Origin: Bacteroidales bacterium
GTDB lineage: Bacteria; Bacteroidota; Bacteroidia; Bacteroidales; UBA12077
DNA: 33,041 bases
Direction: 5' to 3'
NCBI GenBank assembly: GCA_030637515.1
Contig: DAOWGM010000163.1
Location: 1 to 33,041, forward strand
Below the pieces are notes generated by a model, which was not told the origin of the DNA, ran no database searches, and saw only the letters and a list, made by a program, of their open reading frames with translations. Positions 6,579-33,000 of the stretch are shown piece by piece. The translations under genes were made by a program, and so were the position numbers. Positions within the stretch are counted from its first letter, which is position 1. Every line of letters starts with the position of its first letter.

Positions 6579-7469
6579 ATGAAAATACAAATTGAGAATC
6601 TGGATAAGATTTACAAAAATGGGAAACGTGCACTTTCAGGAATAAATCTCGAAATAGAAAATGGGATGTTTGGGCTATTAGGTCCAAATGGAGCTGGTAA
6701 ATCTACTTTAATGCGTATTCTAGTAACATTAATGAAACCAACCGAAGGTAAAGTTAATGTAAATGGATTTGACCTTATGAAAGATCGTGGCGAGATTCGA
6801 AAAATGCTAGGTTATTTACCCCAAGATTTCAGATTCTTTACTAAATTAAAAACTTGGGAGTTTTTGGATTATGCTGCCGGACTTTCAGGAGTAAATAGTA
6901 AAAAACTCAGATCAGAGAAGGTAGATGAATGGCTTGATAAGGTTGGACTTTTCGATGTTCGTGAACGAAGTGCAAATAAACTCTCAGGAGGAATGAAACG
7001 ACGGTTAGGAATTGCTCAGGCATTAATTGGTGATCCTCAGATAATAGTTGTTGACGAGCCAACCACTGGTCTTGATCCTGAAGAACGTATTCGATTTCGA
7101 AATATACTTTCCGAACTTAGTCAGAGAGATGTAATTATTGTTTTGTCAACTCATATAGTTGGCGACATTTCAAGTATTTGTCAAAATTTGGCATTATTGA
7201 ACAAAGGGAATCTTGAATTTAATGGTTCTCCGGAAGAATTAATTAGCAAAACAAAAGGTCATGTTTGGCAAGTAAACACTTCTGGATTCGAATATGAAAT
7301 GCTTAAAGAAAAGTATGCTATTATTTCTACTATTCCTTCAGAAGAAGGCTGGGAAGTTCAATTGGTAGGTAACGAAATCAATGTAAAAAATGCCATTGAA
7401 ATTGAACCAAATCTTGAACATGCTTATGTTTATTTTATGGAGTATTTAACTAGTCAAAACAGCTTTTAA
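6579..7469 (+). CDS. ABC transporter ATP-binding protein (ABC-2 type)
   Basis: 296-residue cytoplasmic ATPase that should power the permease encoded 1 nt downstream. All motifs are intact: A-loop tyrosine Y12 (NLDKIYKNG), Walker A GPNGAGKST (35-43), Q-loop Q82 (YLPQDF), signature LSGGMKRR (135-142), Walker B IIVVDEPTTGLDP (155-167) and H-loop H192. A C-terminal tail of about 75 residues contains VWQVN and PNLEHAYVYF. The same tail pattern and a near-identical core (NGMFGLLGPNGAGKSTLM) recur in the ATPase domain fused to the RND pump at 16708-21417, so the two are paralogues inside one locus. It is the first gene of the export operon. Membership of the CcmA/NatA-like group is clear; the substrate is not. 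Confidence 0.95.
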   Translation: MKIQIENLDKIYKNGKRALSGINLEIENGMFGLLGPNGAGKSTLMRILVTLMKPTEGKVNVNGFDLMKDRGEIRKMLGYLPQDFRFFTKLKTWEFLDYAAGLSGVNSKKLRSEKVDEWLDKVGLFDVRERSANKLSGGMKRRLGIAQALIGDPQIIVVDEPTTGLDPEERIRFRNILSELSQRDVIIVLSTHIVGDISSICQNLALLNKGNLEFNGSPEELISKTKGHVWQVNTSGFEYEMLKEKYAIISTIPSEEGWEVQLVGNEINVKNAIEIEPNLEHAYVYFMEYLTSQNSF

Positions 7470-7470
7470 C

Positions 7471-10400
7471 ATGAATTCTATTCAAACAATAAAAATTATT
7501 GCCCGATTCGAAATGAAAACACTTCTACGAAGTTGGTTTTTCAGAATCTTCGCAGGTTTATTTGTCATTGGATTAGGGATTTTCAATATTGCTGTTTTTA
7601 ATGAAACTAGCGGTGCTCCATGGTTATTCAGGGCACTTCCGGCTTCAATACCTTATGCAAATCTTATTATATTAAATCTCGGACAAGCAATTGTAGCAGT
7701 ATTTCTGGCTTCTGAATTTTTAAAACAAGATAGAAAAAACGATACTGTTGAGGTGATTTATGCCCGCTCAATGACCAATGCTCAATACATTATCGGCAAA
7801 GCTCTTGGTATATTGTCCGTTTTCCTAATTCTTAATTTTATTATTCTTATTCTGGGAATAAGTTTTTCATTTTTTAGTGGAGACTCTGCAAAAGGTATAG
7901 GTGAGTTTTTCTTATACCCTATTTTAGTTAGTATTCCCACACTTGTTTTCATCTTAGGTTTATCATTTTTCTTAATGACACTCCTTAAAAACCAAGCTAT
8001 AACCTTTATTATTTTATTGGGATATATTGCACTCACAATATTCTATTTAAACGAAAAATATTATCACCTTTTCGATTATATTGCATACAATGTTCCAATG
8101 ATGAATTCAACCATAACCGGATTTGGAAATCTAACAGAAATTGTAATTCACCGAAGCATCTATTTCTTTATTGGTATTGGTTTAATCTTATTTACAGTAT
8201 TTAAATTAAACAGATTACCTCAATCCAAAGCTTTCAAGTTTTTACCGCTTTTAATGGCCCTTATATTTATTTCCATAGGATTTTATTTAGGATCTTATTA
8301 TATAAATCTAAAGAAGTTAAATATTGAGCAAAAAGAGCAAATGGTTGCTCTTAATAATAAGTACTGCAATCTGCCTAAAGTATATATTGATGAGTGTAAC
8401 TTAGAACTAAAGCATAAAGAAAAAACAATATCAGTAAAAGCGAATTTAAAGTGTACTAATAAAACAAAAAGTTCTATTGACACATTAATTTTCAGCTTGA
8501 ATCCAGCCTTAAAAGTTAGTTCGATTGAGATTAATAATGAAAAAACAGAGTTTATAAGAGAATTTCATTTGGTTAAATTAGTTTACCCTAACAAACTAAC
8601 GCCTGGAGCTTCTGATAATGTGGTTATTAGTTACGAGGGTAAAATAAATGAAAACACCCATTTCTTGGATCAGAATCCTTTAAACTATACAGATAACTTT
8701 AGCTTGAATATGTACATGGTACGTAAACGTTATGCATATATTCATACAGATTTTGTTTGTCTAACAAGCGAATCGCTTTGGTATCCTATATCGGGAGTTA
8801 CCTATGCAACAGATAAACCAGGTTTTCATCAACCCGATTTTACAAAATTCAAATTACGGGTAAAAACATCTGAAGATTTAGTAGCTGTTTCTCAAGGAAA
8901 TTCAATTAATAAAGAAAATGGTGTTTTTGAATTTGAGAATGAAAATGCATTACCGAAAATCAGTTTACTAATAGCTGATTACGACAAGCATTCCATAACT
9001 GTTGATTCTGTTGAATATTCAATTTACTCAACCAAAGGAAATGATTTCTATTTAGAGCATTTCACAGAATTTAAAGACACTTTACCAGCAATAGTACGAG
9101 AACTTAGAGATGAATATGAAACTTTGCTTGACTTAAAATATGGATTTAAGCGTTTTTCACTTGCTGAAGTACCAGTGCATTTTGCATTAGATAAACATAT
9201 ATGGTCGGTAACCAGTGATGCCATTCAACCTGAAATAATCTTTTATCCTGAAAGGGGTGTTACATTAGAAGAAACTGATTTCAAAAAAAGAAAGAAGAGA
9301 TTTGAAAAACAGATGAAAGAAAATAATGAAGAAGTTACACCTGAAGAATTGCAGGTTAGAATTTTCAAACATTTTATTAGGGGAAACTTTATGGCTCCAC
9401 CAACAGAACGGTACGAATATAGAAATATAATTGATAAGCACACATATAGTCTTATTCCTCAATATTACAGTTTTCTTACCCAGTTAGAGTCTGAAAAATG
9501 GCCTGTCTTAAATTTAGCTCTTGAAGTTTATTTAAGGGAACGAAATGTAAATAATGTTTCATCAAGCAGGTGGTTCTACCGTGGTATTAGTAAAGGAGAA
9601 AAAATCAACCTTGAACTTAAGCAATCAAGTCTGGCTGAACTTATTAAAAACGGAGTTGAAATAACACGGGAAGATGATGAAGATGGTGATCCTTTAAATA
9701 TAAATGATGTTATACTTGCAAAAGGCGATTATCTATTTTCATTGTTCCGCGCAAGATACGGTGATAAAGACTTTAATAATCTGTTAAACGATTTAATAAA
9801 ATCAAACCAAAATAAGTCATTCTCATTTAATGATTTGGAAGATGCCATGCAGTTCAGGTTTAAAGATTCGTTATTTAATGAAATAGATTATTGGTATACA
9901 AAAAACCAATTACCTGGTTTCTTAATAAAAGATTTACAAACATATAAAGTATTGGATGGTGAATACACGAAGTATCAGATTCGTTTCAAAATTGCCAATC
10001 CTGAAAACATTGATGGAATCATTACAATGAATATTGATCTTGATGATAAAAGTAATGTTCGCAGCTTTACATCAGATGCACCTGAACAACCGGATTTTTC
10101 AAAGAAAATTTTCATTCCTGCAAATTCGGCAAAAGAGGTTGGTATCTTATTTCCAACGGAACCAACACGAATGAATATCTATACCAATATATCAGAGAAT
10201 CTGCCCAATAATTTAATATATGAATTTTCAGAATTTGATGATCTTAAAAAAGTTGCGATCCTTGATGAAATTAAAGATTTCCCTTTGTTCACCGATCTGG
10301 AAAACCAAAATGAAATAATTGTTGATAATGAAGATGAAGGTTTCCAATATATTCAGGAATCTAATGAAAGTTATTTAAAATCAGTTATTAACAAAAATAA

Positions 10401-10827
10401 AGAAGATAAATATAAATATTCTGGAATTCATTTCTGGAATCCTCCATCAGAATGGAAACCTGTATTACGAACGAATTTTTATGGAAAATATATTCGCTCA
10501 GGAATGTATACACGTTCCGGAGAAGGTGAAAGAATTGCCCAATGGAATCCAGAATTAAAAGAAGCTGGCTATTACGATGTATACTGCCATATTGCTAAGA
10601 TTAATATTCAATGGAATCGCGAAAAACGAAAATCAAACTACAATTTTAAAATATATCATAACGATGGTATAGATGATATAACTCTTGCTGATGAAGAATT
10701 AGAAGATGGCTGGAATTATATAGGAACTTTTTACATTTCACCTGAAAATGCAAAGGTTGAGCTAACGAATAAATCAGTAGGAAAAATGGTTTATGCCGAT
10801 GCAATCAAATGGGTGAAAAATGATTGA
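7471..10827 (+). CDS. ABC-2 permease fused to a zinc-site-less M1 peptidase-like domain and a golvesin-like C-terminal domain
   Basis: 1118 residues. The first about 280 form an ABC-2-type permease with seven predicted helices (about 22-43, 63-84, 110-135, 146-172, 175-193, 226-245, 255-277). Seven helices with a cytoplasmic N terminus would put the rest in the periplasm. Residues about 300-815 resemble the non-catalytic framework of M1 aminopeptidases (LWYPISG at 436-442, QPEIIFYPERGV at 586-597, then helical sequence). However, no HExxH zinc motif occurs anywhere; the expected place reads IFKHFIRGNF (631-640). It is therefore probably a binding or structural module and not a protease. Residues about 1000-1118 look like the golvesin/Xly C-terminal domain (AQWNPELKEAGYYDVY, WNYIGTFY, VYADAIKW). 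The permease-M1 fusion is known in Bacteroidota; the missing zinc site and the golvesin tail are the oddities. Partner of the ATPase just upstream. Confidence 0.85.
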   Translation: MNSIQTIKIIARFEMKTLLRSWFFRIFAGLFVIGLGIFNIAVFNETSGAPWLFRALPASIPYANLIILNLGQAIVAVFLASEFLKQDRKNDTVEVIYARSMTNAQYIIGKALGILSVFLILNFIILILGISFSFFSGDSAKGIGEFFLYPILVSIPTLVFILGLSFFLMTLLKNQAITFIILLGYIALTIFYLNEKYYHLFDYIAYNVPMMNSTITGFGNLTEIVIHRSIYFFIGIGLILFTVFKLNRLPQSKAFKFLPLLMALIFISIGFYLGSYYINLKKLNIEQKEQMVALNNKYCNLPKVYIDECNLELKHKEKTISVKANLKCTNKTKSSIDTLIFSLNPALKVSSIEINNEKTEFIREFHLVKLVYPNKLTPGASDNVVISYEGKINENTHFLDQNPLNYTDNFSLNMYMVRKRYAYIHTDFVCLTSESLWYPISGVTYATDKPGFHQPDFTKFKLRVKTSEDLVAVSQGNSINKENGVFEFENENALPKISLLIADYDKHSITVDSVEYSIYSTKGNDFYLEHFTEFKDTLPAIVRELRDEYETLLDLKYGFKRFSLAEVPVHFALDKHIWSVTSDAIQPEIIFYPERGVTLEETDFKKRKKRFEKQMKENNEEVTPEELQVRIFKHFIRGNFMAPPTERYEYRNIIDKHTYSLIPQYYSFLTQLESEKWPVLNLALEVYLRERNVNNVSSSRWFYRGISKGEKINLELKQSSLAELIKNGVEITREDDEDGDPLNINDVILAKGDYLFSLFRARYGDKDFNNLLNDLIKSNQNKSFSFNDLEDAMQFRFKDSLFNEIDYWYTKNQLPGFLIKDLQTYKVLDGEYTKYQIRFKIANPENIDGIITMNIDLDDKSNVRSFTSDAPEQPDFSKKIFIPANSAKEVGILFPTEPTRMNIYTNISENLPNNLIYEFSEFDDLKKVAILDEIKDFPLFTDLENQNEIIVDNEDEGFQYIQESNESYLKSVINKNKEDKYKYSGIHFWNPPSEWKPVLRTNFYGKYIRSGMYTRSGEGERIAQWNPELKEAGYYDVYCHIAKINIQWNREKRKSNYNFKIYHNDGIDDITLADEELEDGWNYIGTFYISPENAKVELTNKSVGKMVYADAIKWVKND

Positions 10828-10922: not shown

Positions 10923-12446
10923 ATGAACAAATTTAAACACATACTAATTATTACAATAGCATTAGTTCTAACTAATATGCTTGTAAACGCTCAAATGGTT
11001 TTAACGCTTGAGGATGCTATGAGATTTGCGCAGGAGAATAGTCCTGATATTAAACAATCAAGATTAAGCATGGAACAAAACCGTGAATATTTAAATGCGC
11101 AATTAGCAATGCTTAAATCTAAGTTTTCACTTAATGTTACACCAATTCAATATTCAAATAGCGAAACCTATGATGAGTATTATTCACAATGGTATAATTC
11201 TGAACGAACAGTTTCAAATGGTGGGCTTACTATTGCTCAACCCATTAAATGGACCGATGGAACATTATCATTAAGAAACGATTTTGAGTATAAATCTACA
11301 TCAACGGAAACTTTTGATAATATTACTGATCCTTTAAATCCAACAAAAACTACAAACAATTATAGCGGTTTCGATAATAATCTCTATTTAAGTTATAATC
11401 AGCCTTTGTTTACATACAATAAAACAAAGATGAATTTGAAACGTCAGGAGTTATCTCTTGAAAATTCTACTCTTGCCTATTCTATTCAAATGCTAAACAT
11501 TGAGCGCCAGGTAACTCAGGCATTCTACAGCATATATCAAAAACAAATGTCGGTACAAATTTCCGAAGAGGAATTCAAAAATCAAGAAATTAGTCTTGAG
11601 ATAATTCGAAGTAAAGTTGAAGCAGGATTATCAGCTAAGGAAGAATTGTTACAAGGCGAATTAAATTATGCAACCAGTAAATCAAATCGGGATAATGCAA
11701 AAGTAGATTTGGAAAATGCAAAAGATCAGTTTAAAAGGCTCATTGGTGTTTCATTATATGAAGAAATTGAGATCACAACAGATATTCAGTACGTTCCTGT
11801 TCTTGTTGATTTGGAAAAAGCGATCGAAAACGGTTTATCCCAGAGATTAGAATTATCGCAAAGACAAATTGATTTAAACAATGCTGAATTTGATTTGATT
11901 GAAACAAAAGCAACCAATGAATTTCGTGGTGATGTTGATCTTTCTGTGGGTATTATGGGTAACAACGAAAACTTTGCAAACATTTATGAAAACCCAACAA
12001 AAAGTCCACAAGTTGGTGTCACCTTTTCTATTCCAATTTTTGATTGGGGAGAAAGAAAAGCTCGAATAAGAGCAGCTGAACTTAAAATGGAATCAACAGA
12101 GATTGATTTAAAAAGCCAACAAGACGATATAGTTATTAATATTCGTCAGGTATACAGAAGCTTACAAAATTTAAATACACAAATTGGAATAGCAGAACAA
12201 AATGAAAAAAATGCACAGTTAACATATGAGATCAATCTTGAAAGATATAAAAACGGTGATTTAACAAGTATGGATTTGGATAGATTTCAGAATCAATTAT
12301 CTCAAAAGAAAATGGATTTAGCAAACGCTTTAATCAATTATAAATTAGAATTACTAAACTTAAAAATACAGTCATTGTGGGATTTTGAGAATGATATGTC
12401 TTTCGTTCCTCGGGATTTACAAAATAATATCAAATCTGGTGAATAG
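10923..12446 (+). CDS. TolC-family outer membrane efflux protein
   Basis: 507-residue outer-membrane channel of the OEP/TolC family, the exit duct of a tripartite pump. A Sec signal peptide (MNKFKHILIITIALVLTNML) is probably cleaved near VNA-Q at residues 21-24. The mature protein starts with the classic LTLEDAMRFAQENSPDIKQ segment and contains the two internal structural repeats typical of TolC: long helical stretches with ESLEI...KVEAGLSAKEELLQGE in the first half and NLERYKNGDLTSMDLD in the second. PQVGVTFSIPIFDWGERKAR is the usual second-half beta-strand and loop signature. Length is normal. It is encoded between the ABC-M1 permease and the adaptor lipoprotein and should serve the RND/ABC complex of this locus. 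Confidence 0.95.
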   Translation: MNKFKHILIITIALVLTNMLVNAQMVLTLEDAMRFAQENSPDIKQSRLSMEQNREYLNAQLAMLKSKFSLNVTPIQYSNSETYDEYYSQWYNSERTVSNGGLTIAQPIKWTDGTLSLRNDFEYKSTSTETFDNITDPLNPTKTTNNYSGFDNNLYLSYNQPLFTYNKTKMNLKRQELSLENSTLAYSIQMLNIERQVTQAFYSIYQKQMSVQISEEEFKNQEISLEIIRSKVEAGLSAKEELLQGELNYATSKSNRDNAKVDLENAKDQFKRLIGVSLYEEIEITTDIQYVPVLVDLEKAIENGLSQRLELSQRQIDLNNAEFDLIETKATNEFRGDVDLSVGIMGNNENFANIYENPTKSPQVGVTFSIPIFDWGERKARIRAAELKMESTEIDLKSQQDDIVINIRQVYRSLQNLNTQIGIAEQNEKNAQLTYEINLERYKNGDLTSMDLDRFQNQLSQKKMDLANALINYKLELLNLKIQSLWDFENDMSFVPRDLQNNIKSGE

Positions 12447-12529: not shown

Positions 12530-13579
12530 ATGAAAAGATTAATCACATTTATAATCGCAGTTGCAATTTTTGCATCATGTAATAACGAAGAAAAAGATCT
12601 GAACAAGGATATTTCGGTTCCTGTTTCAGTAATAGATCTGAAATTACAATCTATTGAAAAGTTTATTGAAACTACTGGAACGGTTAATCCTGTTAAAGAG
12701 ATCAGCTTAAAATCTGAAATTACCGGTAATTATAACTTGCTCGTAAATCCTGCAACGGGCAAAAAATATGCTTTGGGCGATCGTGTTAAAGAAGGTGATG
12801 AAATAATCAAATTTAAAGACAAAGAGTATGAAAATAATATAAAAATTAATTCGCTTAAACTTAGTCTGGAAATTTCGAAACAAACTTTTGAAAAACAACA
12901 ATCGCTTTACGAAAAAGGTGGAGTAACTCTAAGCGAACTTAAGAATGCAGAAATAAACTATATCAACGCCGATTACAATTTTAAAGATGCGCTAATTCGT
13001 CTCGAGAAAATGCATATTAGAGCTCCTTTTTCAGGAGTAATTGTTGATTTACCATATTATACTCCTACCACAAAAGTTGCTTCAAATTCAACCATGTTAA
13101 AATTAATGGATTACAGCAAACTGTATATGGAAATCAATTTAGCAGAAAAGGATTTAGCATATATAAAATCAGGACAGAAAGTTAAGATTACAAATTATAC
13201 TATTCCTGAGGATACTTTATCAGGTATAATTACACAAATTTCTCCAGCTATTGATGCTGATACGAGATCGTTTAAAACAGTTATTAATATTAATAATACA
13301 AAATTATTAATGCGTCCGGGAATGTTCGCAAAAGGAGAAATTATAGTTGCTTCAGCTGACAGCACAATCGTGATTCCTAAAAATGTAATACTTTCAAAAC
13401 AACATGGGAATACTGTATTTGTAGTTGATAAAGATCTTGCTCAGGAACGAATTATTACATTTGGTTTAGAAAATCCAAACGAGGTACAAATTATTTCCGG
13501 CTTAGAAAAATCAGACCGATTGGTAGTTAAAGGATTCGAAACACTTCGTAATCGTTCTAAAGTTAAAGTTATTAAATAG
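12530..13579 (+). CDS. RND efflux periplasmic adaptor lipoprotein (HlyD/MFP family)
   Basis: 349-residue periplasmic adaptor that links the inner-membrane pump to the TolC-like channel. The lipobox FASC makes C17 the lipid-attached residue. Next come the biotinyl-lipoyl-like half (VNPVKEISLKSEITGNY at about 53-69, completed around HIRAPFSGVIVDLPY near 163-177) and a short helical hairpin (about 103-158, from NIKINSLKLSLEIS through LYEKGGVTLSELKNAE). A beta-barrel (about 190-275) includes LAEKDLAYIKSGQKVKIT and RPGMFAKGEI, and a membrane-proximal domain completes the protein (about 280-349). The hairpin is short, as in RND adaptors. It is encoded 14 nt before the first RND pump, with which it should assemble. 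Confidence 0.95.
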   Translation: MKRLITFIIAVAIFASCNNEEKDLNKDISVPVSVIDLKLQSIEKFIETTGTVNPVKEISLKSEITGNYNLLVNPATGKKYALGDRVKEGDEIIKFKDKEYENNIKINSLKLSLEISKQTFEKQQSLYEKGGVTLSELKNAEINYINADYNFKDALIRLEKMHIRAPFSGVIVDLPYYTPTTKVASNSTMLKLMDYSKLYMEINLAEKDLAYIKSGQKVKITNYTIPEDTLSGIITQISPAIDADTRSFKTVININNTKLLMRPGMFAKGEIIVASADSTIVIPKNVILSKQHGNTVFVVDKDLAQERIITFGLENPNEVQIISGLEKSDRLVVKGFETLRNRSKVKVIK

Positions 13580-13593
13580 TTAAACATCAACAG

Positions 13594-16500
13594 ATGAAGA
13601 AAATAACACAATTTTCGGTTAATAATCCTGTAACGGTTTCGATGATCGTTGTTGCAATCATTCTGTTGGGGTATATCTCATTTGGGAAACTAAGTGTTGA
13701 TCTACTTCCTGATATGAATGCACCGCGTATATTCGTTGAAATAAAAGCAGGAGAACGCCCGCCGGAAGAAATTGAAAAACAATATATTGAAGATATCGAA
13801 GCTCAGGCTATTCGTCAAAAAGGTGTATCGCAAATCTCTTCAGTTTGTATGGTTGGTTCTGCAAGAGTAACGGTTGAATATACCTGGGGCAGAGATATGG
13901 ACGAAGCTTTTCTTGATTTGCAAAAAGGCTTAACAGCATTTAGTCAGAATTCTGATATTGATGAATTTACAATAACTCAACACGATCCTAATGCTTCTCC
14001 GGTAATGATTATTGGGATGTTGCATCCTGAAATTACCGATATGGATGAGCTCCGAAAAGTGGGTGAAAATTATATTCGTAATGAGTTAATCCGATTGGAA
14101 GGAATTGCAGATGTTTCACTCACCGGAACTGAGGAAAAAGAAGTTCTAATTGAGACTAATCAATATAAACTTGATGCATACGGATTAACTACAAGTCAGA
14201 TTGTTCAGGAAATTCAGAACATGAATCGCAATGTTTCTGGTGGAACAATTGTAGAAATGGGAAAGAAATATATTATCAAAGGCTCAAGCCTTGTTGGTAA
14301 TATTGAAGATATTGAAAACATTGTTTTAAGCTACAAACAAATTAATAGTTCTGAGAATCAAACCACCGGAGGAAAAGCTCCAATCTTTTTAAAAGATGTT
14401 GCCAAAGTAAGCTTTGTAAATAAAGATCCTCAAAATTTAGTTCGTATTAATGGTCAACGCTGTGTTGGATTATCAATTTATAAAGAAACCGGATTTAATA
14501 CCGTTAAAGCGGTTGACGATCTTACAGAATCATTTGAATCGATTAAAAAAGCATTACCCGGTTACGAATTTATTATTGTTCAGAATCAGGGTGAATTTAT
14601 TCAAACATCAATTGACGAAGTGCAGGAAACAGCACTAATTGGAATTCTTATTGCCGTGTTTGTACTTTTTATATTCTTACGAAGGATTAAAGTTACGGCT
14701 ATCATAAGTTTTGCAATTCCAATTTCTGTTATTGCTACATTTAACCTCATGTATTTTAACGGATTAAGTTTAAATATTATGACTCTGGGAGGGCTTGCAT
14801 TAGGTGCCGGAATGCTTGTTGATAATGCCATTGTGGTAATGGAAAATATTTTCCGGAACATGGAACAAGGAATGTCGGTGCGAGATGCTGCAATAAATGG
14901 AACAGCAGAAGTTGGAGGAGCAATTGTTGCTTCTACTTTAACTACGATAGTTGTATTTCTTCCGATAGTTTATTTACATGGAGCATCGGGAGCCTTATTT
15001 AAAGATCAGGCATGGACCGTTGCATTTTCATTATTAGCATCATTGTTTGTAGCAATTCTTGTTATTCCTATGCTCTTTAATTATGCTTACGGAAAAAAGA
15101 AGAAGCAGAAAGAAATAAAATCTGTGCGAATTGAATGGTATGGAAAACTACTATCTAAAATATTAGATAAAAAAGGGATCGTATTAATCTCATCTATTCT
15201 ACTTTTAGCATTAACTGCTTATATATTGCCAAAAGTAGGATCGGAATATTTACCTAAAAGCGGAACGAGTGAATTTAGCATTGAAATAAAACTTCAAGAA
15301 GGAACTCAACTTGAACGAACTTCAGGTACAGTTAAAAACATTGAAGTAATGTTGACAGAATTGTTGGGTGAAAAATTGGATATTATATATAGTCAGATTG
15401 GACCATCAAGCTCATCAGGTAATGATAAATCTGTTTTCCAAAATGAAAATACAGCTACTTTAAAAATTCACTTAAAAGATGAGTTTATTACTCAGTCTGA
15501 ATATATTATAACTACAGTAGAAGAGTTGATGGGGACAATTCCCGATGCTGAAATTTCAATCATTCGAGATCAAACTGCACTGCAATCAACATTAGGAACT
15601 GATGATGCTCCACTTGTTGTTGAAGTCAAAGGAAAAGATTTGCAGGTTTTAGATCAGATTTCTTCAGAAATAAAATCAAAATTAATTGAGATACCTGAAT
15701 TAATCAATATCAAAACGAATATTGAAGAAGGTGCTCCTGAAATTGATGTGGTAATTGACAGATACAAAGCAGGAATTTACAATATGAGTGTTGACAATAT
15801 CATTTCACAACTAAAAGATCTGCTAATGGGTAAAAATGCCGGCAAATATGAAAAAGATGGTGAAATGAATGATATTACAGTTAAGCTGCCTGATATGAGT
15901 TTATCGGAATTTAACTCTATAACTTTAAAGAATGGAAATATTGATGTTCCATTGTATGAACTGGCTCATATTGAAAAGTCAGTATCGCCAAAGCAATTAT
16001 TCCGAAGAAATCAGAATAGAATTGGAAAAGTAATGGCAGATGTCGATCGTTCTGTTGCATTTGATCAGGTGATACAAAAAGTACGTGCCCAAATTTCAGA
16101 TCTTGATATTCCACAAGATTATCAGGTTGAGATTGTTGGTGAAGAACAAAAGCGACAGGAAGCCATGTCAAGTTTAGGATTTGCATTAATACTATCTATC
16201 ATATTGGTTTATATGGTAATGGCTTCGCAATTCGAATCACTGATTCATCCTTTCACCATATTGCTTACAATTCCGCTTGCAGGTGTTGGTGCTGTTTGGG
16301 CTTTTCTAATACTCGGAAAACCACTTAGTATTATGGCTTTTATTGGTATAATAATGCTGGCTGGTATTGCAGTAAACGATTCAATTATTTTAGTTGATGC
16401 AATAAATAAATTTAAAGCTCAAGGGCTTGCTCTGCGCGAATCAATTATTCGAGCTGGAGAGAATCGTATCAGACCAATTATAATGACCAGTTTAACAACA

Positions 16501-16683
16501 ATTTTAGCTTTGTTACCATTAACATTTGGAATTGGCGAAAGTGCTGCTTTAAGATCACCTATGGCAATAGCGGTAATTGCAGGATTAATTACTTCTACCT
16601 TACTTACATTAGTTGTAATTCCTTGTGTTTATTATGTTTTTGAAGCACTAAAAATTAAACTATTCTCACAAAACAATGCATAA
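13594..16683 (+). CDS. RND-family efflux pump subunit (AcrB/MdtB-like)
   Basis: 1029-residue inner-membrane, proton-driven pump, a normal full length for the family. Helix 1 is at about 12-30, followed by the DLLPDMNAPRIFVEI strand and the first periplasmic domain. Helices 2-6 (about 345-495) carry LVDNAIVVMENIF (408-420), in which D410 matches the essential AcrB D407 but the next position is N instead of D408. The second periplasmic domain is at about 550-855, followed by helices 8-12. In TM10 the sequence AGIAVNDSIILVDA (923-936) has N928 where AcrB has K940, as in many non-AcrB subgroups. Together with the following RND gene it probably forms a hetero-trimer, as MdtB and MdtC do; this is inference from adjacency. 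It lies 24 nt before the RND-ABC fusion gene. Confidence 0.95.
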   Translation: MKKITQFSVNNPVTVSMIVVAIILLGYISFGKLSVDLLPDMNAPRIFVEIKAGERPPEEIEKQYIEDIEAQAIRQKGVSQISSVCMVGSARVTVEYTWGRDMDEAFLDLQKGLTAFSQNSDIDEFTITQHDPNASPVMIIGMLHPEITDMDELRKVGENYIRNELIRLEGIADVSLTGTEEKEVLIETNQYKLDAYGLTTSQIVQEIQNMNRNVSGGTIVEMGKKYIIKGSSLVGNIEDIENIVLSYKQINSSENQTTGGKAPIFLKDVAKVSFVNKDPQNLVRINGQRCVGLSIYKETGFNTVKAVDDLTESFESIKKALPGYEFIIVQNQGEFIQTSIDEVQETALIGILIAVFVLFIFLRRIKVTAIISFAIPISVIATFNLMYFNGLSLNIMTLGGLALGAGMLVDNAIVVMENIFRNMEQGMSVRDAAINGTAEVGGAIVASTLTTIVVFLPIVYLHGASGALFKDQAWTVAFSLLASLFVAILVIPMLFNYAYGKKKKQKEIKSVRIEWYGKLLSKILDKKGIVLISSILLLALTAYILPKVGSEYLPKSGTSEFSIEIKLQEGTQLERTSGTVKNIEVMLTELLGEKLDIIYSQIGPSSSSGNDKSVFQNENTATLKIHLKDEFITQSEYIITTVEELMGTIPDAEISIIRDQTALQSTLGTDDAPLVVEVKGKDLQVLDQISSEIKSKLIEIPELINIKTNIEEGAPEIDVVIDRYKAGIYNMSVDNIISQLKDLLMGKNAGKYEKDGEMNDITVKLPDMSLSEFNSITLKNGNIDVPLYELAHIEKSVSPKQLFRRNQNRIGKVMADVDRSVAFDQVIQKVRAQISDLDIPQDYQVEIVGEEQKRQEAMSSLGFALILSIILVYMVMASQFESLIHPFTILLTIPLAGVGAVWAFLILGKPLSIMAFIGIIMLAGIAVNDSIILVDAINKFKAQGLALRESIIRAGENRIRPIIMTSLTTILALLPLTFGIGESAALRSPMAIAVIAGLITSTLLTLVVIPCVYYVFEALKIKLFSQNNA

Positions 16684-16707: not shown

Positions 16708-19700
16708 ATGAACTTTATAATAAAACGAAAAGTACTTATTGCAATGCTCTTTACAGGGCTAACGATGCTGGGTTATATTTCATACAAGCAGTTAGCTGTT
16801 GAGTTATATCCAAATGCTACTTTACCAATGCTTTTTGTTCAGGTAGGAACTCCTTTAGAAGTTGATCCAAAATACATGGAGAATCAAGCTATTATTCCTT
16901 TGGAAGGAGCTATTGGAACACTTGAAGGAATTGAAAAAATTGAATCTACAGCCGGACAACAATCAGGTATGATACAAATATCATATCTGAAAAATACGGA
17001 TATCAAATTTGCCTATCTTAAGTTGGTTGAGAAAATTGATGAAGCAAAAAAATCGCTTCCAGAAGGATTTCAAGTACAAACGTTTAAGTTTGACATTGAA
17101 CAACTTACAAGCACATTCATGACAATTCAGGTTCGTGGCAGTGGTGGCGTTGATCGGGTTCGTCAGGTAACTGATAACGAAATCATTAATGAAATTAAAA
17201 ACATTGATGGGATTGCAAATGCTGAAGTTTTTGGAGGAAGAGAAAAATCAATTGAAATTACATTAAAACAAGATATATGTGATAGCTATGGAATAACACC
17301 TTCTGATGTTCGTACAGCGCTAAATAACAATAGTAAGGCAAGGACTTTTGCCGGAAAAGTTAGTCATAACAATCAAACACATTTTGTAAATATAATTTCG
17401 GAGTTTGATGATATAAATGACATTCATAACTTAGTTGTTAAAGAAAAAGGGAAAATCAAGCTTAAAGATATCGCTGATATACATTATGGTGTAAAAGAAC
17501 AAACTTCTTATAGTCGTGTAAATGGTAAAGAAGCTATTACAATAAGCCTTACAAAAGATTCACAAGCTAATATTATTGAGCTGGCAAATAATGTAAAAGA
17601 ACAAATTGAGGTTTTAAATAAAGATTTAGAAGGGAAAGATATTGAAATGGTTGTGCAAAGCAATACTGCAGAAACCATGGAGAAGAATATCGATTCCATT
17701 ATTCAGTTAGCACTTTTAGGGGGATTACTAGCCATCTTTGTTCTTTGGATCTTTTTAAAGAACTTTAGGTTAGTTGTAGCAATTGCATTGGCTATTCCTA
17801 TTTCAGTTTTTACAGCATTTAATTTCTTTTATGCTTTTGGTATTACCATAAACAGTTTAACCCTTTTGGGAATGGCTCTTGCAATAGGAATGTTGTTGGA
17901 TAATAGTGTCGTCGTCCTTGAAAACATTTATCGGCTTGCATCTAAAAAAATGCATCCCGATCAGGCAGTAATTCAGGGTACAAAAGAAGTCTGGAAATCG
18001 ATATTTGCAGCAACATTGACTACAATAACTGTGTTTTTACCATTTGTTTTTTCAACTAACTTTTTTATTGAATTAATCGGAAAAAATATTGGAGTTTCGA
18101 TCATCTCCACATTACTTGTATCATTGGTTGTGGCTTTGCTATTAATACCAATGATCACACACGCATTTTTGAAATTTAGAGGAAATGATAAACCCATTCA
18201 ATTTGAAAAGATTTCATTCCATAACAGGTTAATCCAAATATATTTGGTTTTGCTAAAAACCTGCATGCGAAGTCCCGGAAGAACTATATTGGGAGCAATT
18301 GGAATATTTTTTATTACTCTTCTTATTAGTCTTGGTGTAAGTTTTATTAGAACGCAACAAGCAGAAATAAAAGATATTACACTTTATGTTACACTGCCGA
18401 GTGGTACAACATTAGAAAATACCGATATCCTTATTGCGGAAGCAGAAAAAAAACTGGAAGATCTTGAAGAAAAGAAAGATGTTGTAAGTCAGATATATGA
18501 AGAAGAGGCTCTTCTAACAATATCCTTGATTGATGATTACAAGGATGTTCGGAATTTCTCTATTCCTAAAATTAAAAATGAAATTCTTGAACGTGTCGAA
18601 GATCTGAATCCCGCAGAATTTAGTTGGGATCCACCAGCAACAGGTCGTCGGTTTGGAGGTAGCAATTATAATGATGATGAGTTTGGTCGTTTTCTGGGAA
18701 TAGGAACACAGCGCGAAAAAGTAATCATTAAAGGTCAGAATTTTGATAAAATGCTTAATCAGGCAAACGATGTAAAATACTATTTAGGACAATTAACTTC
18801 GGTTGAAAGAGTTGATATTCGGATTCCGGATAAAAGACCTGAGCTCATGATGAATTTCGACAAACAACTCATGGCTTTATACGATATTCCGGTAACATCT
18901 GTACTTTCTGAGTTAAATTCATTTCAGCATGAATTTTCAAGCGGAGTTAAATTCAAACAAGGAACAGAAGAATACGACATTCTGATTAAAACTATAGGTT
19001 ACAGTGAACAGAAAGAAAGAAATATTAAAGATTTAAAAGCTCTGCCTGTTCGTGGCTCACAAGGTTCTCAATTTGAGTTACAGGATATTAGTAAATTTAA
19101 TTTTGCCGAAGGATTATCAACTATTCGACGCACGAATCAGGAAAAACAACTGGAATTAGTTTATCAATTTATTGATGAAGTGCAGGATGAAAAAGATTTA
19201 TTGGAAGCAGCAAGAATGGAAATTGATGAATTGGTTGCAGGAATGACCTTACCATCCGGTATAGCTTTGGAAGTTATTCATGAAGAAAATGATTTAGGCG
19301 AATTTGGCTTTTTATTACTAATGGCATTTATCCTGATATATATGATTCTATCTTCCGTTTTTGAATCATTTTCAGTTCCTATTGTTATGATGTTTTCAAT
19401 TCCTATGGCTGCTATAGGTTCGTTAGTTTTCTTAATCCTTACAGGAACATCACTAATGAATCCTTATGTTCTTACAGGCTTTTTAATACTACTTGGGATA
19501 GTTGTAAACAATGGAATTATTCTAATTGATTACTCAAGAGTTTTGCGAAAACGTGGATATACAGATTCGCGTGCACTAATGATGGCTGGACTTGCACGTG
19601 TGCGTCCAATACTAATTACTGCCATAACAACGATTATTGCATTAATTCCTTTAGCACTTGGTAAAGCTGAATATGTTTCACTAATTGGTGTTCCTTTTGC

Positions 19701-21417
19701 AGTAACAATTATTGGAGGATTAACAGTAAGTACCTTACTTACATTAGTATTTATCCCCACTTTAAATTCAGGATTACAATCTTCGTTAAAATGGATTCGC
19801 GGACAAAAATCATATATTAAAGCTATCCAAATAGCTATTTGGATAATAGGAACTTACTTTATTTTTACTGAGGTTGATCGAAGAGTTTGGCAAATTATTG
19901 ATTTTATCGTTTTAATGCTAATAGTTCCGGCTACAGTGTATTTCATACAAAATAGTCTACGAAAAGCTTCTGAAAAACTAATTGATAAAGATGAAGATCT
20001 GCATATCAGAATCAGTAATCTTGTTAAAATTTATGATTGGGACAGTCGGTTTATTAGAAATTGGAAATCAGGAATAAACTTAAGAAAAAGATTAGGCATT
20101 CAGCATGAATATAAATCCATAAAAGATTTTGATCAATTAATATGGCAATTACCTTTGATTGGCTTTATAGTGTATTTCATTTATTTCCATTTACAAAGCG
20201 GATTATGGTATTTTATTTTACCAATATTTCTTTATCTAATTACAACCTTTATCCTTGCTCCTGTTGAAAAATATGCAAGAAATCTAAAAAAAGAAAATAA
20301 AGGAAAATTAATTAGAAGATTGATTCTATTTACAACAAAATTATTTTTCTGGGCATTTCCTGCTCTTGCTCTTTATTTATTTTACAACAAATTTGAGCTG
20401 TTGGGATTAATTATTCCTATGGGAGTAATCTGGTATTTTCTTATTCTAATCAAAGTAACTTCCGATAATTTATACAAGAAAAATGTTGACGTAAACCGAA
20501 TTAAAGGCAAATTTAAAGGAATCAGAAAAGGATTCTATCGATTTGTATTGGTAATACCGATAATCGGCAAAAAGAAAGTTCCTTTTAAAGCATTAAAAGG
20601 TGTTTCAGTCGATATTAAAAATGGAATGTTTGGTTTATTGGGTCCAAATGGTGCCGGCAAATCTACATTAATGAAAATAGTTTGTGGTATTCTGGAACAA
20701 AGCTATGGGCAAATCACTATTAACGGTATTGATGTTCGGGAAAAACGAGAAGAGTTACAGGGATTAATAGGATATCTTCCTCAAGAATTTGGCATGTACG
20801 AAAACATGACAGCATGGGATTTTCTGCACTATATGGGAATTTTAAAAAAGTTATACAATAAGGAAGAGCGTACTAAACGTATTGAGTATGTTCTTGGTGC
20901 AGTTCATATGCTGGATAATAAAAATGAGAAAATAGGATCATTTTCAGGTGGTATGAAACAAAGAATTGGTATTGCACAAATCCTGTTGCATTTACCAAAA
21001 ATATTAGTTGTTGATGAACCTACCGCAGGTCTTGACCCAAGAGAACGTATTCGATTCAGAAACTTATTAGTTGAACTAAGTAAAAACAGAATAGTAATTT
21101 TCTCAACACATATTATTGAGGATGTAGCAAGCTCATGTAGCATGGTTGCAGTATTGAAAAAAGGAGAAGTAAGATACCTGGGAGCTCCAATAAAAATGGC
21201 AAAAATTGCAGAAGAAAAAGTTTGGATGCTAAATATTCCCACTGATGATTTTGAACAGTTAAAAGAACATTATGCAATTATTCATCATATGAAAGATGGT
21301 GATAATATACGCTGTCGTTGTTTGGCAGATGAAGCTCCAACGCCAGAAGCAAAATTAGTAAAAGCAAATCTGGAAGACGCATACTTGTATTTGTTAACGA
21401 ATGAAAAAAAGTATTAA
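16708..21417 (+). CDS. RND efflux pump fused to extra membrane helices and a C-terminal ABC ATPase domain
   Basis: 1569 residues in one open frame. Residues 1-1030 are a complete RND pump: LLDNSVVVLENIY (396-408) with D398 at the AcrB D407 position, and TM10 GIVVNNGIILIDY (930-942). Then come two further helices (about 1037-1055 and 1063-1081) and a short strand LHIRISNLVKIYD (1098-1110) that matches the first strand and A-loop of the free ATPase at 6579 (KIQIENLDKIYK). Four more helices (about 1146-1160, 1165-1184, 1208-1226, 1230-1249) follow before the rest of the ATPase: Walker A GPNGAGKST (1312-1320), Q1359, FSGGMKQR (1412-1419), Walker B ILVVDEPTAGLDP (1432-1444), H1468 and the family tail (VWMLN, ANLEDAYLYL). 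The helix count keeps the ATPase cytoplasmic. All catalytic motifs are intact. The expected A-loop tyrosine is Y1109, about 200 residues from Walker A. I know of no described RND-ABC fusion of this form. Confidence 0.9.
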   Translation: MNFIIKRKVLIAMLFTGLTMLGYISYKQLAVELYPNATLPMLFVQVGTPLEVDPKYMENQAIIPLEGAIGTLEGIEKIESTAGQQSGMIQISYLKNTDIKFAYLKLVEKIDEAKKSLPEGFQVQTFKFDIEQLTSTFMTIQVRGSGGVDRVRQVTDNEIINEIKNIDGIANAEVFGGREKSIEITLKQDICDSYGITPSDVRTALNNNSKARTFAGKVSHNNQTHFVNIISEFDDINDIHNLVVKEKGKIKLKDIADIHYGVKEQTSYSRVNGKEAITISLTKDSQANIIELANNVKEQIEVLNKDLEGKDIEMVVQSNTAETMEKNIDSIIQLALLGGLLAIFVLWIFLKNFRLVVAIALAIPISVFTAFNFFYAFGITINSLTLLGMALAIGMLLDNSVVVLENIYRLASKKMHPDQAVIQGTKEVWKSIFAATLTTITVFLPFVFSTNFFIELIGKNIGVSIISTLLVSLVVALLLIPMITHAFLKFRGNDKPIQFEKISFHNRLIQIYLVLLKTCMRSPGRTILGAIGIFFITLLISLGVSFIRTQQAEIKDITLYVTLPSGTTLENTDILIAEAEKKLEDLEEKKDVVSQIYEEEALLTISLIDDYKDVRNFSIPKIKNEILERVEDLNPAEFSWDPPATGRRFGGSNYNDDEFGRFLGIGTQREKVIIKGQNFDKMLNQANDVKYYLGQLTSVERVDIRIPDKRPELMMNFDKQLMALYDIPVTSVLSELNSFQHEFSSGVKFKQGTEEYDILIKTIGYSEQKERNIKDLKALPVRGSQGSQFELQDISKFNFAEGLSTIRRTNQEKQLELVYQFIDEVQDEKDLLEAARMEIDELVAGMTLPSGIALEVIHEENDLGEFGFLLLMAFILIYMILSSVFESFSVPIVMMFSIPMAAIGSLVFLILTGTSLMNPYVLTGFLILLGIVVNNGIILIDYSRVLRKRGYTDSRALMMAGLARVRPILITAITTIIALIPLALGKAEYVSLIGVPFAVTIIGGLTVSTLLTLVFIPTLNSGLQSSLKWIRGQKSYIKAIQIAIWIIGTYFIFTEVDRRVWQIIDFIVLMLIVPATVYFIQNSLRKASEKLIDKDEDLHIRISNLVKIYDWDSRFIRNWKSGINLRKRLGIQHEYKSIKDFDQLIWQLPLIGFIVYFIYFHLQSGLWYFILPIFLYLITTFILAPVEKYARNLKKENKGKLIRRLILFTTKLFFWAFPALALYLFYNKFELLGLIIPMGVIWYFLILIKVTSDNLYKKNVDVNRIKGKFKGIRKGFYRFVLVIPIIGKKKVPFKALKGVSVDIKNGMFGLLGPNGAGKSTLMKIVCGILEQSYGQITINGIDVREKREELQGLIGYLPQEFGMYENMTAWDFLHYMGILKKLYNKEERTKRIEYVLGAVHMLDNKNEKIGSFSGGMKQRIGIAQILLHLPKILVVDEPTAGLDPRERIRFRNLLVELSKNRIVIFSTHIIEDVASSCSMVAVLKKGEVRYLGAPIKMAKIAEEKVWMLNIPTDDFEQLKEHYAIIHHMKDGDNIRCRCLADEAPTPEAKLVKANLEDAYLYLLTNEKKY

Positions 21418-21470: not shown

Positions 21471-21520
21471 AATTGTTAAATGATAGTAAAAGAGATCAAC
21501 CTTATTTAGGCATTGACAAC

Positions 21521-21534
21521 TTGATACTTGATAC
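21521..21534. repeat. Tandem heptad TTGATAC x2 before the ABC-2 permease
   Basis: Two exact copies of TTGATAC end 4 nt before the ATG at 21539. A third, diverged copy (TTGACAA at 21513) precedes them at an 8-nt offset. This tract argues that the coding region begins at 21539 and does not include the open codons that extend upstream to a TTG at 21473. Confidence 0.5.
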
Positions 21535-21538
21535 TAAA

Positions 21539-22249
21539 ATGAAAATGAAAACAAACAAAATAAGATTAGGATTTGATATTATAAAATATAACCTCAAAAT
21601 AGTATTTGCAAGCAAATTTGTCTACTTCCTAATTGCGGCGGTTGCATTTTTTCTAATGGTAATAGGCATTATGCTTTTCAGCAATTCTTCAGTTTCAGAT
21701 AGTGATATTTTTGCAACACTTATTTTCCCTGGACTACTAATTGCTTTTTATCCGGTAATTTTTAATGTTCAAAACGATAAAGATTCACGAATGCTTGAAA
21801 TAATATTCGGAGTTCCCAATTACAGGTATAAAGTTTATTTAGTACGATTTATTATTAGCATGCTCTTGACCTTCGTTATATTAATCTTTATGTCATGGTT
21901 CACTGTTTTCGCTATTTTGAGAATCCCAGTTTTAAGCATGGTTTATCAACTAATGTACCCTATACTTTTCTTATCCTGTGTATCATTTCTATTCTCAACA
22001 TTGGTAAGAAATGCAAGTGGTACTGCAGTTATCATGATTATAATCGGACTGTTTTTCATGATTTTAGAAGATGTCCTAATACAAAGCAAATGGAATATCT
22101 TTTTAAATCCATTTAATGTACCAAGTGATATAAGTCTTACAGTTTGGAAAAACATACTGTATCAAAACCGATTAATGTTACTAATTGGCTCAGTAATTTC
22201 ATTATTATGGGCATTAATTAATTTACAAAAGCGGGAAAAATTTGTATAG
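21539..22249 (+). CDS. ABC-2-type permease without its own free ATPase
   Basis: 236-residue integral membrane protein with six predicted helices (about 27-47, 58-76, 100-126, 135-156, 161-180, 209-229), the normal size of an ABC-2 transmembrane domain. Sequence features such as VQNDKDSRMLEIIFGVPNYR (a cytoplasmic coupling-helix-like loop between helices 2 and 3) and LVRNASGTAV fit that family. There is no ATPase gene next to it; the closest ATPase is the domain at the end of the RND-ABC fusion just upstream, so it is likely powered by that domain. I chose the ATG at 21539 (MKMKTNKIRLGFD) over an upstream TTG because heptad repeats fill the intervening DNA; an ATG at 21545 is also possible. 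Last clear gene of the export locus. Confidence 0.85.
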   Translation: MKMKTNKIRLGFDIIKYNLKIVFASKFVYFLIAAVAFFLMVIGIMLFSNSSVSDSDIFATLIFPGLLIAFYPVIFNVQNDKDSRMLEIIFGVPNYRYKVYLVRFIISMLLTFVILIFMSWFTVFAILRIPVLSMVYQLMYPILFLSCVSFLFSTLVRNASGTAVIMIIIGLFFMILEDVLIQSKWNIFLNPFNVPSDISLTVWKNILYQNRLMLLIGSVISLLWALINLQKREKFV

Positions 22250-22297: not shown

Positions 22298-22720
22298 ATG
22301 AAAAAGCTATCACTTGCCTTACTAATACTAGGTTTAATTTTCGGTCAACTTGTTGTTCTTACTTTTAATCTACATAATGGATTTGAAATTCGTGATATTA
22401 CTATAAAACTACTTCCAATTGCTGATTATGCGGGGAGAGCATCTTCTCAACTTTATTTAACATCAACAATACTTGGTTATTTAGCTTTTGTAATTTTTGG
22501 TGTAATTAACACAAATAAAACAAAATCTCCTGCCATTTTTAAAACAGCATTAATGTATACGGGAATTGTTATTGTTGTAAGCTTTTTTGAATTTACAAGC
22601 ATCCTTGAAGATCTAAATGGAACATTTCAAGGCAAGCATTTTAGAATAGGCTGGCTTTTATTCCTGCTTGGATTATGGATTTTTAGTAAAAGATATCTTT
22701 TAAAAAAGAGGAACTTATAG
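22298..22720 (+). CDS. Four-helix membrane protein of unknown function
   Basis: 140 residues and very hydrophobic, with predicted helices at about 4-24, 54-72, 83-103 and 115-132. A short polar loop after helix 1 contains FNLHNGFEIRDITIKLLP. I do not recognise a family. The stop codon (TAG) is immediately followed by the ATG of the O-antigen-ligase-like gene, so the two are almost certainly co-transcribed and translationally coupled. It could be an accessory membrane factor for that enzyme or for the export locus upstream; the sequence does not decide. Confidence 0.75.
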   Translation: MKKLSLALLILGLIFGQLVVLTFNLHNGFEIRDITIKLLPIADYAGRASSQLYLTSTILGYLAFVIFGVINTNKTKSPAIFKTALMYTGIVIVVSFFEFTSILEDLNGTFQGKHFRIGWLLFLLGLWIFSKRYLLKKRNL

Positions 22721-30024: not shown

Positions 30025-33000
30025 ATGCGAAAAATTAGAATTTCACTTTCAGTATTAGCCTTATTTGCTGTTTTTTCAGCATTTTCTGTTAAGGCTCAAA
30101 AGGATGCACGCTTAATGCGATTTCCTGATATTAATAATGACTTAATAGCATTTGTATATGCCGGAGATATCTGGACTGTTGATGCAAATGGTGGAGATGC
30201 AATAAGATTAACATCACATAAAGGATTAGAATTATTTCCAAGAATTTCTCCTGACGGGAACCTTATTGCATTTTCTGCAGAATATTCAGGTAGCAGACAA
30301 GTTTATGTTATGCCATCTACAGGTGGTACACCTCAACAATTAACTTATTATAACGATGTTGGAGAAATGGCTCCACGTGGTGGTTGGGATAATGTTATTC
30401 TTGACTGGACTCCTGATAGTAAAAATATTATGATAAGAGGAAATAGAACTCCTTTTGGTGAAAGAAATGGAAAATACTATTTAGTAAGTATCGAAGGTGG
30501 TTTTGAAAAACCATTACAAATAACTGATGGTGGTTTTGGAGTACTTTCTCCTGACGCATCAAAAATTGCATATACGCCTATTAGTAGAGAATTTAGAACA
30601 TGGAAAAGATACAAAGGTGGACGTGCTTCTGACGTGTGGATTTATGACTTAAATAAAGATGTATCGGAAAAAATAACTGATTTTGCCGGAACAGATCAAA
30701 TCCCTGTTTGGTACAAAAACAAAATATATTTTGCTTCTGACAGAGATTTAACTCTAAATATCTTTAGTTATGATTTAGATACAAAGGAAACAAAGAAGAT
30801 TACAAATCATACTGAATTTGATGTTATGTGGCCTTCCGGCGAAAACGGAATGATAGCATACGAAAATGGTGGACATATTTACAAACTTAATGCTGAAACC
30901 GGAAAAACCGAAAAAGTTACCGTTAATATAAGTTTCGATAATCCAAACATACTTCCTTATTTTAAGAATGTTAAAGATAACATCGAAAATGCTTCAATTT
31001 CACCAAGTGGAAAACGTGCTTTATTCGATGCTCGTGGTGATATTTTCTCTGTGCCTGCTGAAAATGGTTTTACAGTAAATCTTACTAGAACACAAGGTAT
31101 TCGCGAAATGTCGCCAAATTGGTCTCCTGACGGAAAATACATTTCTTATCTTTCTGACGCAACAGGCGAATACGAAATCTATCTTTTAGAAAATAAAGAA
31201 GGTGCTAAAGCCAAACAGTTAACTTTCAATTCTAAAGCTTGGAAATACGACGCTACATGGTCGCCTGATAGTAAATATATAGTTTATTTTGATCGTACTT
31301 TAAAGCTAAAGTATATTGATGTAGCTACAGGAGTTGAAAAAAATATTGCAAGTGCTTATTCTGATGAAATCAGAGATTATAACTTTTCTCCAGATTCAAA
31401 ATGGGTAATTTATACAAACAACAGCGAGAATAGTAATAGCTCTGTTTGGGTTTATAATCTTGCTACAGGTAAAAATCATAAAGTAACTAACGATACTTTT
31501 AATGATTTTAGCCCTGTTTTCTCAAAAGATGGAAATTATATCTTCTTCTTATCAAATCGTGATTTCAATCTTGATTTTTCAAGTTATGAATTTACTTACT
31601 TATATAACAATGCAACTAGAATTTATGCATTAGCTTTAAGAAAAGATAGTCCAAAACTTTTTAAATTTAAGAACGATGTTGTAACAGCAAAAGCTGAAGA
31701 TAAGCCTGATGCAGCAAAAGGTAAAAAAGACAAGAAAGATAAAGAAGAACCTAAAAAAGATGAATTAAATATTTCAATTGATTTTGATGGAATTACGAAT
31801 CGAATTATGGATCTCCCAATTGAAGATGGCAATTATTTTTTCCTTGATGCTGTTGAAGGTGGAATTCTTTATGGTGCAGAAGACGGATTACATAAATACG
31901 ATTTATCAAAAGAAAAAGATGATTTAATTATTTCAGATGTAAGATGGGGGATTCTATCAGCTGATGGAAGCAAAATGCTGTACAGAGCAAAAGGAAATTG
32001 GGGAATTACAGGTATTTCTCCAAACCAAAAAGCGGGTGATGGTAAATTAGATTTAAGTAATGTGGAAATAAAAATCGATCCTAAAAAAGAATGGGAACAA
32101 ATCTATACTGATGGATGGAGAATTTTTAGAGATTATTTTTATGTAAAAAATTTACATAATGTTGATTGGGCAGGATTAAAAGTAAAATACGCCAAACTTC
32201 TACCTTATGTTAGTCACAGAGCTGATTTAGATTATATTCTAAGCGAAATTATTGCAGAAACAAATACTGGTCATGCTTACGATAATTGGGGTGATTTTGA
32301 AAGAGTTAAAAGAATCGATGGAGGTTTGTTAGGCGCTGAATTTAAAGCAGATGCAAACTCTAATCGCTATATTATTTCTAAAATCTATAAAGGTGAAAAT
32401 TGGGATGAATCAAGAAGATCTCCTTTAACTGAGCAAGGAATCAATATTAAAGAAGGCGATTACCTTATTAGTTTAAATGGATTCGATGTTACATTAGCTG
32501 ATAATCCTTATATGTTTTTAGAAAATACTGCAAATAAGCATATCGAAATAAAAGTTAACTCTACTCCTTCTGAGTCTGGTGCTAAAACGTATACCGTAAA
32601 AACTATTAATAGCGAACTTACTTTATTTTATTTAGATTGGGTTGAAGCTCGTCGTAAAATGGTAGAAGAACTATCTGGTGGTAGAATTGGTTACATTCAT
32701 GTTCCAAATACAGCATTTGAAGGAAATCATGAATTGTATCGTGGTATGTATGAACAACATAATAAAGAAGCTTTAATTATTGACGATCGTTATAATGGAG
32801 GTGGTTTTATTCCTGCAAACATGGTAGATCTGTTAGACCGCACAACATTAAGTTACTGGCATAGACAAGGATTACATCCAATGAAATATCATAATATTGC
32901 CCATAATGGTCCAAAAGTAATGTTAATTAATGGTTATTCATCATCGGGTGGTGATGCTTTCCCTTACTTTTTCAGAAAGAAAAATTTAGGTACATTAATT

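Follow-up and report, generated by a model that had tools for sequence, protein, structure and literature searches.

A conserved fusion of an RND permease and an ABC ATPase within an exporter-like gene cluster of Bacteroidales

RND and ABC pumps normally use different fuels; RND pumps assemble as trimers, and the ATPases of ABC transporters act in pairs. A draft genome of a Bacteroidales bacterium (GCA_030637515.1) raises the question of whether one polypeptide can carry both engines and, if so, how they might work together. In the stretch of contig DAOWGM010000163.1 analysed here (33,041 nucleotides, the window), a single stop-free frame encodes an RND–ABC fusion of 1569 amino acids, flanked by further transport genes. 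The features of the locus are the following, genes being named below by their first position where needed.

6579–7469, forward strand: stand-alone ABC ATPase (ABC_tran, 110 bits)
7471–10827, forward strand: ABC-2-like permease of 1118 aa with a large further part ending in Golvesin_C (over cut-off)
10923–12446, forward strand: TolC-type outer membrane factor (OEP, 171.5 bits; conserved position)
12530–13579, forward strand: periplasmic adaptor, or membrane fusion protein (TIGR01730, 183.5 bits, cut-off 94.9; conserved position)
13594–16683, forward strand: RND1, sister RND permease of 1029 aa (ACR_tran, 720 bits)
16708–21417, forward strand: RND–ABC fusion protein of 1569 aa, one open frame, with ACR_tran and ABC_tran far above cut-offs
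16711–19764, forward strand: HAE-1 type RND permease part of the fusion, residues 2–1019 (Pfam; alignment with AcrB, MdtB, MdtC and CusA)
19810–19971, forward strand: two further predicted helices, residues 1035–1055 and 1059–1088 (AlphaFold2; hydropathy)
20002–20037, forward strand: putative first strand of the ATPase with A-loop Tyr1109, set apart from the main part, residues 1099–1110 (profile; predicted structure)
20038–20580, forward strand: predicted membrane insertion inside the ATPase, residues 1111–1291 (AlphaFold2, profile, hydropathy)
20581–21414, forward strand: main part of the ABC ATPase, residues 1292–1569 (Pfam; no variation in the counted motif residues among 69 sequences)
21473–22249, forward strand: second ABC-2 (type V exporter) permease, by predicted fold; relatives suggest the ATG at 21545 as the start
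22298–22720, forward strand: small membrane protein, whose occurrence next to the operon is limited to four loci of the same genus (L029, L031, L032 and L033)

According to Pfam, the ACR_tran domain of the fusion covers residues 2–1019 (531 bits against a cut-off of 28) and the ABC_tran domain residues 1296–1440 (103.5 bits against 25). The original prediction, made from the letters of the window, had read the frame as an uninterrupted protein of 1569 residues comprising a full-length RND pump with its proton-relay aspartate D398 and an ABC ATPase with every motif intact. This reading stands: translation of 16708–21417 meets no stop, either between the RND and ATPase parts or elsewhere, D398 aligns with AcrB D407, and Walker A (1312–1320), Walker B (D1436 and E1437) and H1468 are in place, as is the signature, SGGM, at 1413–1416 (placed earlier at 1412–1415). 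With both domains over their cut-offs and the key residues kept, the two machineries of the covalent hybrid appear intact. Two points were absent from that account, namely the asparagines N399 and N934 at the sites of AcrB D408 and K940, and the start of the ATPase, which lies near residue 1099 and not near 1290.

The conservation of the ATPase was followed in 69 full-length fusion proteins, the one of the window included, of which 68 are distinct. K1318, Q1359, S1413, G1414, G1415, D1436, E1437 and H1468 are identical in all of them, and Walker A, the Q-loop, the signature, Walker B, the H-loop and the A-loop are all recognised, each counted residue being the same in 69 of 69. The domain is not contiguous, as profile match and predicted structure set its first strand and A-loop apart from the remainder by 110–205 aa, which supports an ATPase split by a predicted membrane insertion of about 180 aa. 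Residues 1099–1110 form the best window for the profile of the stand-alone ATPase in 12 of 12 sequences (mean 17.1 bits vs 7.0 for the next window), and AlphaFold2, applied to residues 1020–1569, predicts a strand at 1100–1109; taken as an independent HMMER hit, the upstream strand reaches only −3.1 bits. Solved ATPases align from their residue 1 or 2 to model residues from 77–80, ranges which give the first and last aligned residues only, and Foldseek aligns the model to LptB (4p33_A) over 208 columns, the chain having 235.

The same model places four helices within the insertion, at 1147–1161, 1165–1195, 1200–1229 and 1232–1258. Counted after Tyr1109, the insertion measures 110–205 aa in the 69 relatives, with a median of 178. 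Hydropathy recovers the first two extra helices in 65 of the 69 and all four insertion helices in 43, with three found in 21 sequences, two in 2 and one in 3. The six further helices of the original prediction are therefore present as predicted elements, but an arrangement wholly between the RND and ATPase parts is ruled out, because four of the six lie inside the ATPase. A short insertion, of 110 aa, was seen in locus L104 (6905–11503).

The gene order, namely stand-alone ATPase, ABC-2-like permease, TolC, adaptor, RND1, fusion and second ABC-2 permease, is nearly fixed. Of 18 loci fetched from relatives, 12 show all seven genes arranged in this way, and contig ends cut the remaining six. A scan of named genomes provided 65 named loci among its best 80 of 592. 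Within these best 80, TolC and the fusion are collinear in 50 of the 50 loci having both, a homologue of gene 7471 precedes TolC in 44 of the 46 with more than 600 bases there, RND1 lies upstream of the fusion in 54 of 55 where this is visible, and an ABC-2 permease follows the fusion in 62 of 63. Among the exceptions, L092 and L107 have no 7471 homologue before TolC, L107 has no ABC-2 gene after the fusion, and the KSB1 locus L109 is without RND1 beside the fusion and carries the homologues of 6579 and 7471 on the other strand. On the strength of this conserved cluster, the fusion looks like part of a real hybrid export machine.

In the stand-alone ATPase the residues counted, namely the A-loop tyrosine and those of the Q-loop, signature, Walker B and H-loop, are the same in 16 of 16 sequences. 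The product of gene 7471, which carries a large periplasmic part, matches ABC2_membrane_2 with 17.3 bits, under the cut-off of 27.2, and three of seven relatives (L123, L037 and L044) exceed that cut-off; similarity to M1 peptidases, under the cut-off in both cases, occurs only in L123 and L109. For gene 21473 the predicted structure has the ABC-2 permease fold and resembles the NosY, ABCG and ABCA permeases (best Foldseek match, E 0.0097). The alignment of its sequences, searched against solved structures, gave no match at E up to 1. In its family of 46 members, matches at E up to 0.01 were obtained to ABC2_membrane_3 in three members, ABC2_membrane_4 in one, an acyltransferase model in two and a peptidase model in one. 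The fused ATPase itself is by sequence nearest to ABCA transporters among solved chains, followed by TM_1403, with NosF and LptB further down; its best NCBIfam models are GldA and DrrA, both under their cut-offs.

The histories of the paired components were approached with trees. RND1 and the RND part of the fusion group together with SH-aLRT 97 in a quick, midpoint-rooted tree with few outside rows, built from 10 of 69 fusions and 9 of 66 RND1 proteins, and the KSB1 rows split first in both groups. In a second tree, with 18 of 69 fusions and 19 stand-alone ATPases, the fused ATPases form one clade (100/99) and the stand-alone ones another (99/93), as expected for two non-interchangeable halves. 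Recent duplication as the origin of the two ATPases is unsupported, given these separate clades. The trees would fit a fusion that occurred once, after which the components were inherited or transferred together.

An RND permease and a complete ABC ATPase are thus encoded as one polypeptide in a nearly fixed operon. The neighbourhood, which includes a second ATPase, two ABC-2-like permeases and a sister RND, suggests that the fused ATPase belongs to an ABC-2 exporter. We consider it reasonably probable that the fusion occupies the centre of a hybrid exporter, as its inner-membrane subunit, and that this machine spans the envelope, with a type V (ABC-2) exporter tethered covalently to an RND pump. 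The fused and the stand-alone ATPases would power a type V exporter built from the 7471 and 21473 permeases, and the fusion would anchor this exporter to an RND trimer of RND1 and the fusion, comparable to MdtB2C, which is made from two RND paralogues. Hydrolysis of ATP would lift the substrate across or out of the inner membrane; on the periplasmic side it would be picked up by the RND part, which is probably proton-driven, and be pushed on through the adaptor and TolC. The substrate may be lipid-like or amphiphilic, the only clue being the ABCA/ABCG-like parts. A mixed trimer of RND1 and the fusion is probable. If it consisted of one fusion and two RND1 subunits, exactly one fused ATPase would be available to pair with the stand-alone one, and the mismatch between an RND trimer and an ATPase dimer would therefore be solved; alternatively, two fusions and one RND1 may assemble, with the fused ATPases pairing together. 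The choice of oligomer and partners is inferred here from gene order and trees, and the substrate, stoichiometry and coupling proposed for the exporter are to be read in the same conditional sense.

Several observations count against such a hybrid exporter. Both the AcrB D408 and the K940 sites hold Asn, so the proton drive is perhaps weak or absent; the sequence support for 21473 is weak and 7471 lies under the ABC-2 cut-off; the loci L109, L107 and L092 deviate from the common order; and the distribution of the fusion is patchy. The original prediction supposed that the protein would be doubly energised or that one activity would gate the other, and either may be the case. Tentatively, the complex might be a single covalent ABC–RND engine driven by both ATP and protons, moving its substrate from the cytoplasm or the inner leaflet to the outside with a membrane-threaded ATPase, and might represent a new transporter class which arose once, before the split of KSB1 and Bacteroidota or with later transfer.

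If ATP instead served as a gate, the fused ATPases would pair beneath the RND trimer and hold or free its proton-driven cycle; the ABC part would then be a regulatory switch, and the ABC-2 genes would belong to a separate exporter. Conservation of the core of the RND relay as well as of the ATPase motifs agrees with such a role, as does the predicted insertion, which would tie the ATPase to the membrane before and after its first strand. However, the ABC-2 permease that follows the fusion so regularly (62 of 63 named loci among the best 80 of 592) and the stand-alone ATPase in the same operon fit a transport role better, and gating is in our view unlikely.

The state of the proton relay bears on whether the RND half is energised at all. 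In the alignment with AcrB, MdtB, MdtC and CusA, D398, N399, N934, R964 and T971 of the fusion are the equivalents of AcrB D407, D408, K940, R971 and T978, which we take to be the relay residues. The D407, R971 and T978 sites are kept in 69, 69 and 68 of the 69 fusions, respectively, whereas the D408 site holds Asn in 62, Ser in 4 and Thr in 3, and the K940 site holds Asn in all 69. The substitutions at these two sites would suit an RND half that works without protons, as a passive conduit or a substrate-binding scaffold, with the ABC exporter alone energised. Against this stand the retained D398, R964 and T971 and the occurrence of the same set elsewhere: RND1 has nearly the same relay, with Asn at both sites in 65 of 66 proteins, and, among six other complete RNDs of the genome, L162 has exactly the set of the fusion, and Asn occupies the K940 site in four. 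Departures at the D408 and K940 sites are likewise found in CusA and in other RNDs of the genome. Because RND1, L162 and other RNDs of the genome share it wholly or in part, the odd relay looks like an ordinary variant, and its interpretation as a sign of decay is unsupported. A passive RND half is accordingly held to be decidedly unlikely, and proton coupling in the hybrid exporter is plausible judging by the residues kept. Two very similar RND genes, L163 and L164, lie on different contigs (C74 and C184) of the own draft (G000), perhaps through strain mixture or duplication.

That the fusion is real and conserved is confirmed by its occurrence elsewhere. A whole-length match was found in 13 of 98 relatives' genomes (own included), with 46–100% identity, and the region of the joint is matched in 52 of 393 genomes sampled in the order (own included). 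In 44 of these 52 the match lies in an open frame of at least 1515 aa; of the eight shorter frames that match the joint, seven reach a contig end, and the eighth is that of G304. Among 65 named loci (best 80 of 592) the whole fusion lies in one frame at 54; ten are cut by an end and one, L073 (2097–7174), is broken into two frames, so the relatives have the two parts joined. All four segments of the fusion have pN/pS of 0.09–0.30 between the window and five close relatives. The broken L073 and the fragmented own draft (185 contigs, contamination 7.73) might point to an error of assembly or sequencing or to gene decay, but this low pN/pS and the same conserved joint in many other genomes, isolates among them, in effect rule these out, and a wrong join is excluded in practice.

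Within the own genus the fusion is patchy, since only 9 of 20 genomes carry it whole or in part, and in the phylum as a whole few genomes have it (6 of 392, own included). The named carriers among the best 80 of 592 include Marinifilum, Prolixibacter, Draconibacterium, Bacteroides faecis, Parabacteroides, Butyricimonas and Marivirga, and draft carriers in the same set are labelled KSB1, Zixiibacteriota, Calditrichota, Krumholzibacteriia and Latescibacterota. Bacteroides faecis, Parabacteroides, Marinifilum, Draconibacterium and Marivirga represent genera from the gut and from marine or sediment habitats. Genome G021 has, besides its copy on contig C149, an apparent second copy cut by the contig end (C102, 3–3953; 44% identity over query 4–1324). 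Further RND frames, 1448 and 1489 aa in length and with a long C-terminal extension (L001/L047 in G000:C173 and L048 in G088:C15), have a plain RND as their best match.

The RND part conforms to the HAE-1 type, with a full-length ACR_tran domain and an adaptor and outer membrane factor alongside. Among 60 of 80 matches listed, its best solved matches are CmeB and MdtB, and no solved sequence there exceeds 1069 aa. Like the HAE-1 tripartite pumps (CmeB, MdtB, AcrB), the locus encodes a full ACR_tran permease together with an adaptor and TolC in one operon; unlike them, the fusion adds six predicted helices and an ABC ATPase, and has Asn at the D408 and K940 sites. The two adjacent RND genes that group together in the quick tree resemble MdtBC and MuxBC. 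Two sister RNDs form a mixed trimer in the MdtB2C1 heterotrimer, as outlined in PMC7015380. MdtB and MdtC likewise group together in the RND tree, their pair lying apart from that of RND1 and the fusion; the E. coli proteins differ in having 1040 and 1025 aa, without room for an ATPase. MacAB-TolC is an ABC engine acting with an adaptor and TolC, according to the outline in PMC8277102, in which the ATPase of MacB is linked to an ABC permease of its own; the present locus also combines an ABC engine with an adaptor and TolC, but the ATPase of MacB is not joined to an RND pump. The type V exporters NosFY, PmtCD, ABCG and ABCA are similar in that the solved chains nearest the fused ATPase are ABCA and that a predicted ABC-2 permease fold (21473) adjoins the fusion, and differ in that the ATPase is here fused to an RND and split by a predicted membrane insertion.

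In the open-access PMC literature (titles and abstract openings) no RND–ATPase fusion or split ATPase was found described. The parts are all known, and the fusion combines two established kinds of pump; a separate class would be warranted if both engines were shown to work together. Tripartite exporters are sorted by their engine as RND, ABC or MFS, and here two engines occur in one polypeptide and one operon. Should both work, the coupling of ATP hydrolysis and proton flow in one pump would become directly testable, as would the fit between a machine of three subunits and one of two, and the possibility of supplying an RND pump from the cytoplasm. A single ABC–RND engine, if true, would bridge primary and secondary active transport, which are customarily kept apart, and an ABC ATPase interrupted by a membrane insertion would be a fold out of the ordinary that calls for explanation.

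Immediately before the operon, the forward strand of the window encodes a sigma-54-type response regulator (1898–3280), a histidine-kinase-like protein (3261–4622) and an S41 peptidase (4769–6337); among the 18 fetched relative loci, a close homologue of the kinase is present only in L033. Both edges of the window cut through genes, a MacB-like permease (MacB_PCD, FtsX) at 2–1579 on the reverse strand and a Tricorn-like protease with PD40, PDZ and S41 domains at 30025–33039 on the forward strand.
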